From contig JADFKM010000006.1 in assembly GCA_022564935.1 (NCBI GenBank), forward strand, positions 29,502-51,874: a stretch of DNA of 22,373 bases, read 5' to 3'. The notes beneath the pieces are model-generated. The model saw nothing but the letters and a program-made list of their open reading frames with translations, searched no databases and was not told the origin of the DNA. Of this stretch, positions 13,177-18,160 are shown one piece after another. How positions within the stretch are numbered: the first letter of the stretch is position 1; the number at the start of each line of letters is the position of its first letter. A program made the translations under genes and the position numbers. This DNA comes from Candidatus Dadabacteria bacterium (GTDB lineage Bacteria > Desulfobacterota_D > UBA1144 > Nemesobacterales > JADFKM01).

Positions 13177-14220
13177 ATGAGACATACGAAGGCCGCCGTT
13201 CTAGGGGCTAGCGGATATACGGGCAGTGAGCTTATAAGACTTCTGCTCAAGCACTCGAACGTCGAGGTTACTCATGTCACGGCGGACAAGCATGCCGGGA
13301 GAAAAATTCAAGACGTCCTCCCTCATTTCCAAGGCTTAATCGATCTGGAGCTGAAACCACTGGAGCTGGGATTGATACCCGAAGACGTCGATATAGTGTT
13401 TGCGGCGCTTCCCCACGGCAAATCCTCTGAAATAGTAAAAACCCTCGTCAAAGAAAGAGGTAAAAAGGTAGTTGACCTCGGCGCGGATTTCAGGCTCTCT
13501 CACCCGCTTTATGTCGAGTGGTACGGGGAGCACCCGTGCCCGGAGCTTATTACTGAAGCAGCATACGGCTTAAGCGAGCTGTTTGAAGAGGAAATAAAAC
13601 GAAGCAGCATCGTCGCCAACCCCGGATGTTATCCCGAATCTTCTATCCTGGCGTTAGCTCCCCTGCTTATAGAGCACTTGATAGAGGAGGATAACATAAT
13701 CATCGATGCAAAATCCGGGGTGTCGGGCGCAGGCCGCTCCTCGGCGCTCGCCAACAATTTCTGTGAGGTCAACGAAGCAGTTATAGCCTACAAAATAGGG
13801 GAGCACCGCCACAAGCCTGAGATAGAGGAAGCCCTGTCAAAGCTTTCGGGTCTTAACGTCAAGGTCACTTTCACGCCCCACCTGATTCCAATGGACAGAG
13901 GTATTCTATCGACAATTTACGTCAGGTTAAAAAAAGAGCTCGTCACAGGGGAGCTGCTCGAAATCTACAGGGTCTTTTATAAGAATAAGCAGTTCGTGCG
14001 AATCTGTCCCGAAAATACTTTTCCTTCCACCTCGAACGTGAGGGGATCAAATTTTGCCGACATAGGACTGAGAGTAAACCCCCATAGCGGAACAGCAATC
14101 ATCGTATCGGTAATCGACAACCTCGTTAAGGGAGCCTCCGGTCAGGCCGTACAAAATATGAACCTGATGTTGGGCTTCCCTGAGAATGAAGGACTCCAAA
14201 CGGCGCCCGTATTCCCCTGA
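13177..14220 (+). CDS. argC: N-acetyl-gamma-glutamyl-phosphate reductase
   Basis: This 347-residue NADPH-dependent enzyme makes N-acetylglutamate 5-semialdehyde, the third step of arginine synthesis. The dinucleotide-binding loop VLGASGYTGSELIRLL opens the protein. AALPHGKS and VVDLGADFRL follow, then the catalytic Cys151 in VANPGCYPE. KSGVSGAGRS and GEHRHKPEIE, with the active-site His, are also intact. No other arginine gene is nearby, so it is not in an arg cluster here. The ATG at 13177 lacks a Shine-Dalgarno sequence and has a -10-like box 11 bases upstream. Downstream, 150 bases without an obvious terminator separate it from the convergent TIR gene. Confidence 0.96.
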   Translation: MRHTKAAVLGASGYTGSELIRLLLKHSNVEVTHVTADKHAGRKIQDVLPHFQGLIDLELKPLELGLIPEDVDIVFAALPHGKSSEIVKTLVKERGKKVVDLGADFRLSHPLYVEWYGEHPCPELITEAAYGLSELFEEEIKRSSIVANPGCYPESSILALAPLLIEHLIEEDNIIIDAKSGVSGAGRSSALANNFCEVNEAVIAYKIGEHRHKPEIEEALSKLSGLNVKVTFTPHLIPMDRGILSTIYVRLKKELVTGELLEIYRVFYKNKQFVRICPENTFPSTSNVRGSNFADIGLRVNPHSGTAIIVSVIDNLVKGASGQAVQNMNLMLGFPENEGLQTAPVFP

Positions 14221-14370
14221 GTGATCGACACTTCCATTACCGCTGGACAATTTATCAAAAAAACGGGTGTGATAACACAGCACGAGCAGCTCAAACACAC
14301 TCCTAGCGCTAAGGCATCAGAAAGCCGAAACAGTTCCTACATTCAGGATTAATCAAATACTTTTCTCAAC

Positions 14371-16728
14371 TTACTTACGATTCTCAACTAACTGTGCAAC
14401 CTGATCACGAACGTATTGCTGGTCTGCGCTTAGATTCACAGGGTCTTCATTAAGGAGCCACCTGATGTCGTTTTGAAGTACCCTCTTGGCTGAATCCATA
14501 TCCTTTAATTCACTGTGTAAAAGAAAGAGATTCCAGGCAGATATTGTTGTATCAGTATGCCTTTCACCAAGCACTCGTTTATGAGTCTCCAGTACTTTCT
14601 CCTGAAGTTCTCTTGCTCCCTTAAGGTCTCCCTGTGCTCTCAGTGTCCCAGCCAGGTTATTCATAGAGGTGAGAGTATCCGGGTGTTCTTCACCAAGCAC
14701 TCGTTTTGCAATCTCCAGTACTTTCTCCTGAAGTTCTCTTGCTCCATTCAGGTCTCCTTGTGCTCCGAGTGTCCCAGCCAGGTTGTTCATAGAGGTGAGA
14801 GTATCCGGGTGTTCTTCACCAAGCACTCGTTTACGAGTCTCCAGTACTTTCTCCTGAAGTTCTCTTGCTCTCTTCAGGTCTCCTTGCGCACCGAGTGTCC
14901 CAGCCAGGTTGTTCATAGAGGCGAGAGTATCCGGGTGTTCTTCACCAAGCACTCGTTTACGAGTCTCCAGTACTTTCTCCTCAAATTCTCTTGCAGACTT
15001 GTAATCTCCTCTTTCGTAATCATATCTACCTACCCAACCAGCAAGATGAGCCTTTTCTAGTGTGTTTACATGTTTTACAAGATCCCCTGCCAGGATCACT
15101 TCATGTGTAATTTGCTTGTGTAGACGGATGTCGCCTATTGCCTTAGATAATATGTACGACAACACTCTTATGACTGCATCTAATAGTTCAGAGCGCCTTG
15201 CTTCAGCTTCATCTCCTTTGTCATGAAACCGCATCGTACGTGATACGAGTGTGTGTACTTCCCAAGCCTCTCCTTCAACGGTGGTTGCAAGAGAGTGGGA
15301 ATTGACCTGTTTAAGGGAAAGCAGTACCTTCTTACGAGCCTCAGATTCAATCAATTCGTCCAATATGGCAAACACCCCCTCAACCAGCTTAGTAGGAATG
15401 AGTGCAACAGATAGGATGGATGCCAGTCTAAGAAAGTCTGTTCCTTCATCTTCAAGCTTCTTGATGCTTCGAAGAAGTGTTGAAGCGATGCTAGGCTCGT
15501 GACCATTTGGCAACTGCTCCGATAATTCTGCGGTAAGTTCAAGCTCGTCTTCCGCCGGGTTCTTAAGCGCTTTCAAAAAATCCGAAAACCCTTGGTATTG
15601 TAGTGCGGAAGCCGTCACATCCACCGCAAGAGCATGGTAGCCAAGCATCTCTATTATCTTCCACGCAGCATTTTCCTCATCATCATTTGTCGGCTTTTTC
15701 CTGTTTGTGATAAGCTGGTAAGCGTCATTTTTCTCAAGCATGCCCAAATCAACCGGTTTTGCCACTGTGTACTCAGTACTTCTTGTTGTAAGCAGAGTGT
15801 GTGCGTTTCCGTGAGGGGCAAACCAGAGCCTGAGCTTCTCGTTATCCATACCGACTGGTACGTCATCCACTATCCAAAGGGATGGTGACTCCATGTTCTC
15901 TATATGTCTTCCCAAATTTCCTCTAATCTGAAGAAGACCATCGTCTTTTTCGATGTTGATTCCAATTTCTAAAGCAAGGTCTCTCAACTTACGCTCTAGT
16001 TCTCTTTCCGGGTTCTTGGGATCGGCTCCAGTTGCACTGATCCAGTAGATACCGCCCGGATACCCCGCTCCATAACGCATTGCGTATTCCTCTACAAGAA
16101 GGGATTTCCCTCCGCCCCCAATGCCCCGCATCTGCGCTTTACCTCCAGTAACAAGCGTAGCTCTAAAGGAGTTGAGCTTGGAGTGAACATCCCACATTTC
16201 TTTTAGCCGTCCAACGAAATCAGAGTAGAAGATTCCCGTTCTGCCCTTCCATGGTGGCTTATCAAAAGTGATAATCCGACCTAGTGGAGTGTTGATACCC
16301 GAGATGCGCCTCTCGATGCTCTCCACAAGCTCCACCATTGCGTCGGGGTCATTTTTTTCGGGTGCATGTTTGAACAGCGCTCCCTGAAGCTCAACAGGCA
16401 TTATATGGTCATAGTTGTCCTTATTAGGGTTTATAACCATGATGCGGGATATGGGATCGCCTTGTCGTTGACCCGCAAGGAAGGCTGAGGTGAGCTCCCA
16501 CTGACAGTACCGACTTTTGGGATATTGCGTTGAGTAGTAGGCAACTAGAGCCTTAGAGTTGGAAAGTCCCTCGGTTATGTTTTCCATTATTCCTTCATAG
16601 TTTCCGATTCTGTTCTCATCGAGCCATACGCTAAGCCCCTTTGCTCGAAGAGATTTCACAATACTGTGTGCTTCGTCTTTTTCTGCGTGAACATAACTGA
16701 AAAAAACGTCGTATGTTGTTTCTGGCAT
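14371..16728 (-). CDS. TIR domain / NB-ARC-type STAND NTPase / TPR protein, candidate NLR-like immune receptor
   Basis: The protein has 785 residues. Residues 1-120 form a TIR domain: YDVFFSY strand A, a GLSVWLDENRI BB-loop, and SRYCQWEL with Glu78 at the position of the catalytic glutamate of NAD-cleaving TIRs. FVGR (about 170-173) opens a STAND ATPase with Walker A GIGGGGKS (202-209), Walker B LWIVDD (284-289), LLTTRS (312-317), a GYHALAV motif (363-369, GxP/GLPL-like) and VHTLV (491-495, MHD-like). A helical region leads to four 42-residue kinesin-light-chain-type TPRs (574-741). All key motifs look intact. Established families with this layout sense phage components through the repeats, oligomerise through the ATPase and deplete NAD through TIR. 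That role here is inference. It stands alone between housekeeping genes and appears leaderless. A signalling function unrelated to phage is the alternative. Confidence 0.9.
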   Translation of the reverse strand: MPETTYDVFFSYVHAEKDEAHSIVKSLRAKGLSVWLDENRIGNYEGIMENITEGLSNSKALVAYYSTQYPKSRYCQWELTSAFLAGQRQGDPISRIMVINPNKDNYDHIMPVELQGALFKHAPEKNDPDAMVELVESIERRISGINTPLGRIITFDKPPWKGRTGIFYSDFVGRLKEMWDVHSKLNSFRATLVTGGKAQMRGIGGGGKSLLVEEYAMRYGAGYPGGIYWISATGADPKNPERELERKLRDLALEIGINIEKDDGLLQIRGNLGRHIENMESPSLWIVDDVPVGMDNEKLRLWFAPHGNAHTLLTTRSTEYTVAKPVDLGMLEKNDAYQLITNRKKPTNDDEENAAWKIIEMLGYHALAVDVTASALQYQGFSDFLKALKNPAEDELELTAELSEQLPNGHEPSIASTLLRSIKKLEDEGTDFLRLASILSVALIPTKLVEGVFAILDELIESEARKKVLLSLKQVNSHSLATTVEGEAWEVHTLVSRTMRFHDKGDEAEARRSELLDAVIRVLSYILSKAIGDIRLHKQITHEVILAGDLVKHVNTLEKAHLAGWVGRYDYERGDYKSAREFEEKVLETRKRVLGEEHPDTLASMNNLAGTLGAQGDLKRARELQEKVLETRKRVLGEEHPDTLTSMNNLAGTLGAQGDLNGARELQEKVLEIAKRVLGEEHPDTLTSMNNLAGTLRAQGDLKGARELQEKVLETHKRVLGERHTDTTISAWNLFLLHSELKDMDSAKRVLQNDIRWLLNEDPVNLSADQQYVRDQVAQLVENRK
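14506..15009 (-). repeat. Four tandem 126-bp repeats encoding TPR units
   Basis: The units span 15009-14884, 14883-14758, 14757-14632 and 14631-14506, each encoding 42 residues with the core RVLGEEHPDTL and SMNNLAGTL. The second and third units agree at roughly 90% of bases by eye, and shared blocks extend over most of the first. The fourth has diverged at its end (ERHTDT, then ISAWNL). The near-identity at silent positions points to recent tandem duplication. Confidence 0.9.
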
Positions 16729-16734
16729 GGTTCT

Positions 16735-16763
16735 ACCGTATCATGATGCTTAGAGATGGTCAA
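16735..16763 (-). promoter_or_regulatory. Predicted promoter of the TIR-STAND gene, leaderless type
   Basis: On the minus strand TTGACC (16763-16758) is followed after 17 bases by TACGGT (16740-16735), which ends 6 bases before the ATG at 16728. There is no Shine-Dalgarno sequence. The remaining DNA back to the iscS-like stop (to 16978) shows no gene I can support. Confidence 0.5.
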
Positions 16764-16978
16764 AGCGCCTATGAGTCAGGATTCTGGTTCTTAATTAGGT
16801 ATAACTAGAACTTGAAACTTAAGGTTTAATAATTAAATAAGTGTCATGACTAGAACAGAGGTTTATTTCTAAAGAATTTGAGCATAATTTTATACCCATT
16901 TCATTCAACGGATATTTCACAAAGCCGAACCGGGAATTAGGAAACCGCCAGGTGTTAGACCCTTTACTGAGAAAAAAC

Positions 16979-18160
16979 TTATTTTGAACCAATTTCCATT
17001 TCGGCTCCGACACTTCTGATCCTCTCTACAACCCCGGGGAGAACGCCCAGCACCCTACTTATATCCCCTCTGGTAGTAAACCTGCCCAGGCTGAACCGGA
17101 CGCTGGAGAGCGCCTCCTCCTCGGATAGACCCATCGCGAGCAGGACGTGGGACGGGTCAACATTTCCTTCGGAACAGGCCGACCCCGTGGATACGGCTAT
17201 CCCTTCAAGGTCGAGGCTCATCACGGCGGCTTCCCCGCTTACCCCCTTAAAGCCGACATTAAGGGTGTTGTAGAGCCTTTGCGCAGGGTGGCCGTTTACT
17301 CGTGCATTAGGGATGGTACTCATTATTACGCCCTCGAGCTCGTCTCTGAGCGCTTCTATCCTTTCCTTATCCGCCCTCCATTGCTCTCTGAGAATTTCAG
17401 CGGATTTTCCAAACCCCGCGACTCCGGGGACATTCTCAGTACCAGACCTCTTGCCCCTTTCCTGGCCGCCCCCGTGAATTAGGGGCGCGATCTTGAGCCC
17501 CACGCGCACAACCAAGGCCCCCACACCTTTCGGCCCGTATATCTTATGTGACGACATCGACATGAGGTCGCATTCGGAGTTTTGAAAATCGATATCTACG
17601 CGTCCTACGGCCTGTACGGCATCTGTATGAAACACCGCACCCCGCTCCTTTACAATTTCGGCTATTTCCCGAATCGGCATGACAACGCCGGTCTCGTTAT
17701 TTACATGCATAACGGATACGAGCACGGTTTTGGGGGTAATGCTGCTTCTAAGCTCATCAAGGTCGATAAGGCCGGCTCTATCCACGCTGAGATAAGTGGC
17801 GCTGAATCCCCCTCTCTCGAGAAACCTGAACGCTTCCAGCACCGAGGCGTGCTCAACACGGGTTGTGATGATGTGAGTTCCCTTGTTTCGCAGCTCGTAA
17901 GCGGCCCCTACGATAGCGAAGTTGTTGCTCTCGGTGCCTCCGCTAGTAAAAACAATTTCACCCGGTTTGGCTCCGACAAGACCGGCGATACGCGCTCTGG
18001 CCTCATCGAGAAGTGCTTTTCCCTCCATCCCAAAGGAGTGTATGCTCGACGGGTTGCCGAACTGCCCCGTCAAGACCGGCTCCATTGCTTCAAGCGCCGC
18101 GGGGTCAACGGGGGTTGTGGCGTTGTAGTCCAGGTAGGTCCTTGTTATTTCCATGCTCAT
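16979..18160 (-). CDS. iscS: Cysteine desulfurase, NifS/IscS type
   Basis: This 393-residue PLP enzyme removes sulfur from cysteine to form a persulfide for Fe-S cluster and other thio-cofactor assembly. TYLDYNATTPVDP opens the fold. TSGGTESNN binds the PLP phosphate, His104 (VEHASV) stacks on the ring, and Lys206 in SSHKIYGPKG forms the internal aldimine. The mobile catalytic loop STGSACSEGNVDPSH carries Cys329. These are group I (NifS/IscS) features, not SufS. No iscU, iscR or nifU gene is adjacent, so it is not a standard isc operon, and the symbol is by family only. cysE, which supplies O-acetylserine for cysteine, lies upstream on the same strand but 447 bases away. Two ATGs two codons apart (18160, 18154) are possible starts, with no clear ribosome-binding site. 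Confidence 0.93.
   Translation of the reverse strand: MSMEITRTYLDYNATTPVDPAALEAMEPVLTGQFGNPSSIHSFGMEGKALLDEARARIAGLVGAKPGEIVFTSGGTESNNFAIVGAAYELRNKGTHIITTRVEHASVLEAFRFLERGGFSATYLSVDRAGLIDLDELRSSITPKTVLVSVMHVNNETGVVMPIREIAEIVKERGAVFHTDAVQAVGRVDIDFQNSECDLMSMSSHKIYGPKGVGALVVRVGLKIAPLIHGGGQERGKRSGTENVPGVAGFGKSAEILREQWRADKERIEALRDELEGVIMSTIPNARVNGHPAQRLYNTLNVGFKGVSGEAAVMSLDLEGIAVSTGSACSEGNVDPSHVLLAMGLSEEEALSSVRFSLGRFTTRGDISRVLGVLPGVVERIRSVGAEMEIGSK

Follow-up and report, generated by a model that had tools for sequence, protein, structure and literature searches.

The analysed stretch of DNA (the window, 22,373 nt) belongs to a 1.99-Mb MAG of a Candidatus Dadabacteria bacterium. The ORF listing of the window includes a 785-aa ORF with an ATG start and no internal stop, on the minus strand at 14371-16728. 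Its left neighbour is argC (13177-14220, plus strand; identified from its ORF and a search of the genomes of the order) and its right neighbour an iscS-type cysteine desulfurase gene (16979-18160, minus strand; ORF and PADLOC). The two are convergent (tail to tail), and the 2.76-kb gap between them holds this gene only, where the preliminary description had placed it. Domain and homolog searches divide the encoded protein into an N-terminal TIR domain (residues 1-145; 16294-16728, minus strand), a predicted NB-ARC/AP-ATPase core with a following helical region (residues 157-540; 15109-16260, minus strand), and a set of four kinesin-light-chain-type 42-aa TPR units (residues 575-742; 14503-15006, minus strand). 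Within the TPR region, TRF reports a tandem DNA repeat of 126 bp in 3.4 copies with 93% matches (14563-14994), and a plus-strand ORF that overlaps the TPR repeats (14557-15060) is read as their shadow. Pfam reports no DNA-binding domain in the window protein. A promoter of its own had been predicted for the gene; a sigma-70 scan of that gene's strand gave no hit, which for this phylum is weak evidence either way.

The TIR domain is recognised by Pfam (TIR_2 at residues 8-99, E 4e-16), and a profile search ranks the CRISPR-associated Cat1 first among solved TIRs, followed by BtTir, AbTIR, PdTIR and the plant Roq1 and RUN1. Glu78, on helix C (codon 16495-16497, minus strand), is invariant across four homologs and aligns with the catalytic Glu of both Cat1 and AbTIR, so that the helix C Glu of catalytic TIRs (AbTIR E208, RUN1 E100, SARM1 E642) has its counterpart here. 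The initial description of an intact TIR with Glu78 at the NADase position is thus upheld, and the comparison with known TIR structures that it proposed agrees: the predicted TIR, of moderate confidence, matches RUN1 (Z 13.1 over 139 residues, 3.4 A) and the ligand-bound form of AbTIR (Z 12.7 over 130 residues, 3.3 A); SPARTA and SARM1 rank just below. In an alignment read by hand, S140, D167 and E208 of AbTIR, all three of which its NADase activity needs (PMC11374754), correspond to S11, D37 and E78 of the window protein, and W204 and R151 to Y74 and H21. The Trp of the WxxxE motif, usual in catalytic TIRs but not strictly defining, is therefore absent, with Tyr74 in its place and Phe, Pro or Ala in the homologs. 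It is required in AbTIR (W204) but dispensable in TcpC (PMC11374754), and has been tied to cADPR production by Manik et al., as cited in PMC11374754. Because this residue is missing, the window TIR might release linear ADPR instead of the cyclic form, as would fit a system of one gene without a second-messenger effector.

The middle of the protein was identified by conserved motifs and profiles. Pfam does not report NB-ARC for the window protein as a single sequence, but the closest ortholog (described below) clears the NB-ARC cut-off (3.5e-6, 26.9 bits vs 23.5), and a four-sequence profile recovers AfsR and APAF-1 among solved structures. The P-loop residues G202, G207 and K208, the stretch LWIVDD at 284-289, TTR at 314-316 and H492 are invariant in the four homologs, and position 209 is S or T; the window P-loop reads GIGGGGKS, against GMGGIGK[ST] in the others. 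These features identify the region as a predicted NB-ARC/AP-ATPase (STAND) core. The preliminary description had called this ATPase complete: its Walker A (202-209) and Walker B (284-289) motifs stand, conserved in all four homologs, while the MHD-like motif, VH-TL, keeps the conserved His without the Asp. AF2 was run with two sequences, and the whole models are poor (mean pLDDT 52 and 46), their confidence being low except in the TIR and TPR parts. The NB fold was therefore kept out of the evidence, except for a Foldseek ranking of the TIR+NB model, in which the best match is the tetramer of the plant TIR-NLR RPP1, followed by Apaf-1 and TIR domains.

The C-terminal TPRs had also been noted at the outset, and they are strongly supported by Pfam (TPR_10, E 1e-59; TPR_12, E 8e-55). 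They are modelled with a pLDDT of about 80-92, and their best PDB matches are the solved kinesin-light-chain-type repeats 4y6w/4y6c. The four window units share a mean of 72% aa identity with each other, and between central neighbours the DNA identity is 90-92%, with pS about 0.13. The seven units of the ortholog are diverged (pS 0.6-0.9), and the window units average just 41% aa identity to them. Since the window units are far more like each other than like those of the ortholog, despite 63% identity between the TIR+NB parts of the two proteins, the lineage of the window gene has amplified or homogenised its array in the recent past. Similar internal likeness is seen in homologs from Skermanella (six units) and Prosthecochloris (four units). 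Both of these homologs have 16, 36 and 39 among their most variable unit positions (overlap P about 0.011, uncorrected), and positions 16 and 39 are variable in the window array too. The TPRs of fungal NLRs have highly conserved repeats in which the selected positions lie on the concave face (PMC4986451); the variable-position pattern here, from a single window allele, may be of the same kind and offers a lead.

The site between argC and iscS was compared among relatives, as the preliminary description had proposed. It is essentially empty (<=100 bp between aligned ends) in 28 of the 35 in which both genes are readable and 0.2-4.5 kb long in the other seven. Relative to the empty sites, the window carries an insert of about 2.76 kb with one gene (14221-16978). 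The larger gaps examined hold an IS200-like transposase gene in two relatives and, in others, ORFs resembling exonucleases, glycosylases or peptidases, some of which were named by eye; with unrelated inserts in 7 of 35 relatives, the convergent gap is a permissive insertion spot. The ortholog lies at a different site, with a SnoaL-like gene on one side and cysH on the other; these two are convergent as well, and the ortholog is likewise the only gene of its insert. This site is ~30 bp long in three congeners with 84-96% identical flanking DNA. Because the two genes occupy different sites, each empty in relatives, these are two independent one-gene insertions. Strict conservation of the locus, which had been named as the finding that would speak against an immune role, is not what is seen. 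A second argC-like gene, 46% identical, lies elsewhere in the genome (contig C89:32150-33172) and is present in most relatives of the order.

A decayed IS1595-family (ISXO2-like) element has left one end at 16830-16894, with an inverted-repeat end at about 16842. Across 65 bp it is 91% identical to another copy, on contig C64, that carries an ORF with a match to DDE_Tnp_IS1595; the remnant could be either the carrier of the window gene or a bystander. An IS1595-family element of 736 bp (L065:1513-2248) has 14-nt inverted repeats and a transposase frame that looks broken. The possibility that the flanks are a repeated transposon was rejected, since the only part of them with a further copy in the genome is the 65-bp IS1595 end. 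A 19-bp motif, CAGGATNAATNAAATACTT, adjoins both inserts, at 14345-14363 in the window and upstream of the ortholog (L007, upstream of 8001), and exact copies are confined to these two places in the four genomes searched. It was rejected as a shared insertion end: it lies on opposite sides of the two genes, in opposite orientation, and the match is weak (E 0.009). The GC3 of the window gene (0.44) is below that of its neighbours (0.49-0.68). No defence island, phage or mobile element body was found around it; the earlier statement that it lacks defence neighbours essentially holds, since the neighbours give generic PADLOC matches (an SbcC-type ATPase, and IscS). The iscS gene matches the DndA and SspA models with E about 1e-152, but other Dnd and Ssp genes are absent nearby, and the match is likely a false defence call in automatic scans.

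The gene is rare. Its TIR-NB part is strongly matched in 2 of the 43 genomes of the order, a third having a weak TIR-sized match alone, and a gene of this type is found in 2 of 386 genomes overall (E 1e-15). The sole close ortholog (63% over TIR+NB) is in 'Candidatus Dadabacteria' RIFCSPHIGHO2_12_FULL_53_21, of the same order as the window MAG. A scan of genome contigs with two sequences returned this ortholog alone, so the wider distribution is under-sampled. Relatives spanning the whole TIR+NB part, at 38-40% identity, are found on Azospirillum and Skermanella plasmids. The Prosthecochloris plasmid pPAES01 has a 785-aa TIR-NB-ARC-TPR homolog annotated fxsT (L010 7001-9358), near genes for a recombinase, a restriction endonuclease and a diversity-generating retroelement (Avd, RT). 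A blastn search of E. coli genomes gave no DNA match to the TIR-NB part, which says little about protein homology. A pattern scan of viral contigs gave no relative of the TIR-NB part and Wolbachia phage records gave TPR matches only, and a phage-borne origin was rejected on these grounds. Between window gene and ortholog, pS is saturated (0.83-0.90) and pN is 0.23 in TIR and NB alike; this pattern excludes an ORF arising by chance and points to long-standing purifying selection in the lineage of the two genes. Its rarity and the empty argC-iscS sites reject a housekeeping role, and the window gene is accessory.

Taken together, the window gene is probably a single-gene bacterial TIR-NLR that acts by abortive infection, most likely against phages. 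The reading of a lone TIR-STAND-TPR receptor offered in the preliminary description fits all of these findings, and it is supported by a protein of the same architecture, the TIR-NLR of an E. coli P4 satellite, named Rst_TIR-NLR in DefenseFinder. That protein protects E. coli against phages (Rousset et al. 2022, PMC9122126); compared by architecture, it has, like the window protein, an N-terminal TIR, a central STAND NTPase and C-terminal TPRs. It is housed in a satellite hotspot, however, whereas the window gene is a chromosomal insert. TPR sensing, oligomerisation and NAD loss have been proposed for it, and the same course can be proposed here. The TPR solenoid would bind a molecule of a phage or other invader, freeing the NB-ARC switch, held in the ADP state, for nucleotide exchange and oligomerisation; the clustered TIR domains would then cleave NAD+ via Glu78, and the cell would stop growing or die ahead of the spread of the invader. 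Such a receptor would work as one gene, with no need of a partner, and could travel as an accessory insert; no partner adjoins the gene at either of the two sites. Counting against a TIR-NLR are the missing WxxxE Trp, the single-sequence Pfam result for NB-ARC, the low-confidence parts of the AF2 models, the lack of a defence or mobile context around the gene, and the want of any PADLOC model that covers the entire protein.

Other known systems are alike in part. A maize TIR-NBARC-TPR protein kills plant cells in a manner dependent on its TIR Glu and P-loop (PMC9806590), and the plant TNP/XTNX proteins share with the window protein the domain order and the P-loop, Walker B, TTR, GLPL-like and MHD-like His motifs, but plant TNP TIRs group apart from bacterial ones (PMC9806590) and the likeness rests on the NB domain. 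Fungal NLRs (PMC4986451; solved repeats 4y6w/4y6c) and the window gene have in common 42-aa kinesin-light-chain-type units of high internal identity and a repeat number that varies between homologs, although the window protein is bacterial, has a TIR effector and is known from one allele. Kinship with Avs (AVAST), suggested earlier, extends to the general principle of a STAND switch with a repeat sensor and an N-terminal effector; no Avs model was matched in PADLOC (E up to 1) or NCBIfam, the core is of NB-ARC/AP-ATPase type, and the closest kin are NB-ARC TIR-NLRs. The design is already known; what deserves to be retained from this case is the recently re-amplified sensor, together with the paired empty sites. 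With this gene, a TIR-NLR design tested elsewhere is seen in an uncultured lineage about which little is known, and a one-gene immune receptor has two clean pairs of occupied and empty insertion sites. Its near-identical repeats make it a concrete candidate for a bacterial NLR that may change specificity through amplification of repeats, a route that fungal NLRs seem to take. A broader scheme can be put forward tentatively, with clearly less than an even chance of being right: that the recognition repeats of this bacterial NLR are renewed through tandem amplification and homogenisation, in the manner of fungal incompatibility NLRs, rapidly changing phage specificity without a diversity-generating retroelement, and that the gene moves as a bare single-gene cassette into gaps between convergent genes.

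Different functions can be imagined for the same domains. AfsR is the best solved relative of the NB core, and the protein might, like AfsR-type NB-ARC-TPR proteins, be a STAND regulator or scaffold whose TPRs sense a host ligand and whose TIR assembles partners without cutting NAD; the missing WxxxE Trp is also in favour of this. The lack of a DNA-binding domain and the retention of Glu78 and of the Asp37/Ser11 pocket positions make this unlikely, and the patchy accessory distribution and recent sensor re-amplification suit conflict better than regulation. The TIR could instead be a signalling one, as in Thoeris, its cyclic ADPR isomer switching on an effector encoded elsewhere. Weak ThsB-like matches are in its favour, but the ThsB_TIR score (18.3 bits) is below the 21.2 cut-off, no ThsA or ThsA-like gene is found among the neighbours, and the Trp reported with cADPR production (PMC11374754, citing Manik et al.) is absent; such a role is very unlikely.

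A TIR-NLR with the same abortive mechanism could also be aimed at plasmids or further kinds of mobile element, or respond to a stress signal. The sequence itself gives no hint of the trigger, but the protein of like architecture that has been tested acts on phages (PMC9122126), and a non-phage target is considered quite unlikely. The least probable of the alternatives is that the protein is FxsT, the effector of an FxSxx-COOH peptide/VMAP-type conflict system. TIR-AP-ATPase-TPR genes do accompany FxSxx systems (PMC7159879), the TPR region and overall AP-ATPase-TPR layout are held in common, and against NF040586 (NCBIfam FxSxx_TPR, cut-off 300) the ortholog scores 315. The window protein itself reaches only 225.5 bits, its best stretch being the TPR region, its neighbours are housekeeping genes, and recognisable peptide or radical-SAM genes are missing next to both it and the ortholog. 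The Prosthecochloris homolog that bears the name adjoins recombinase and restriction genes, and there the name fxsT looks over-propagated.
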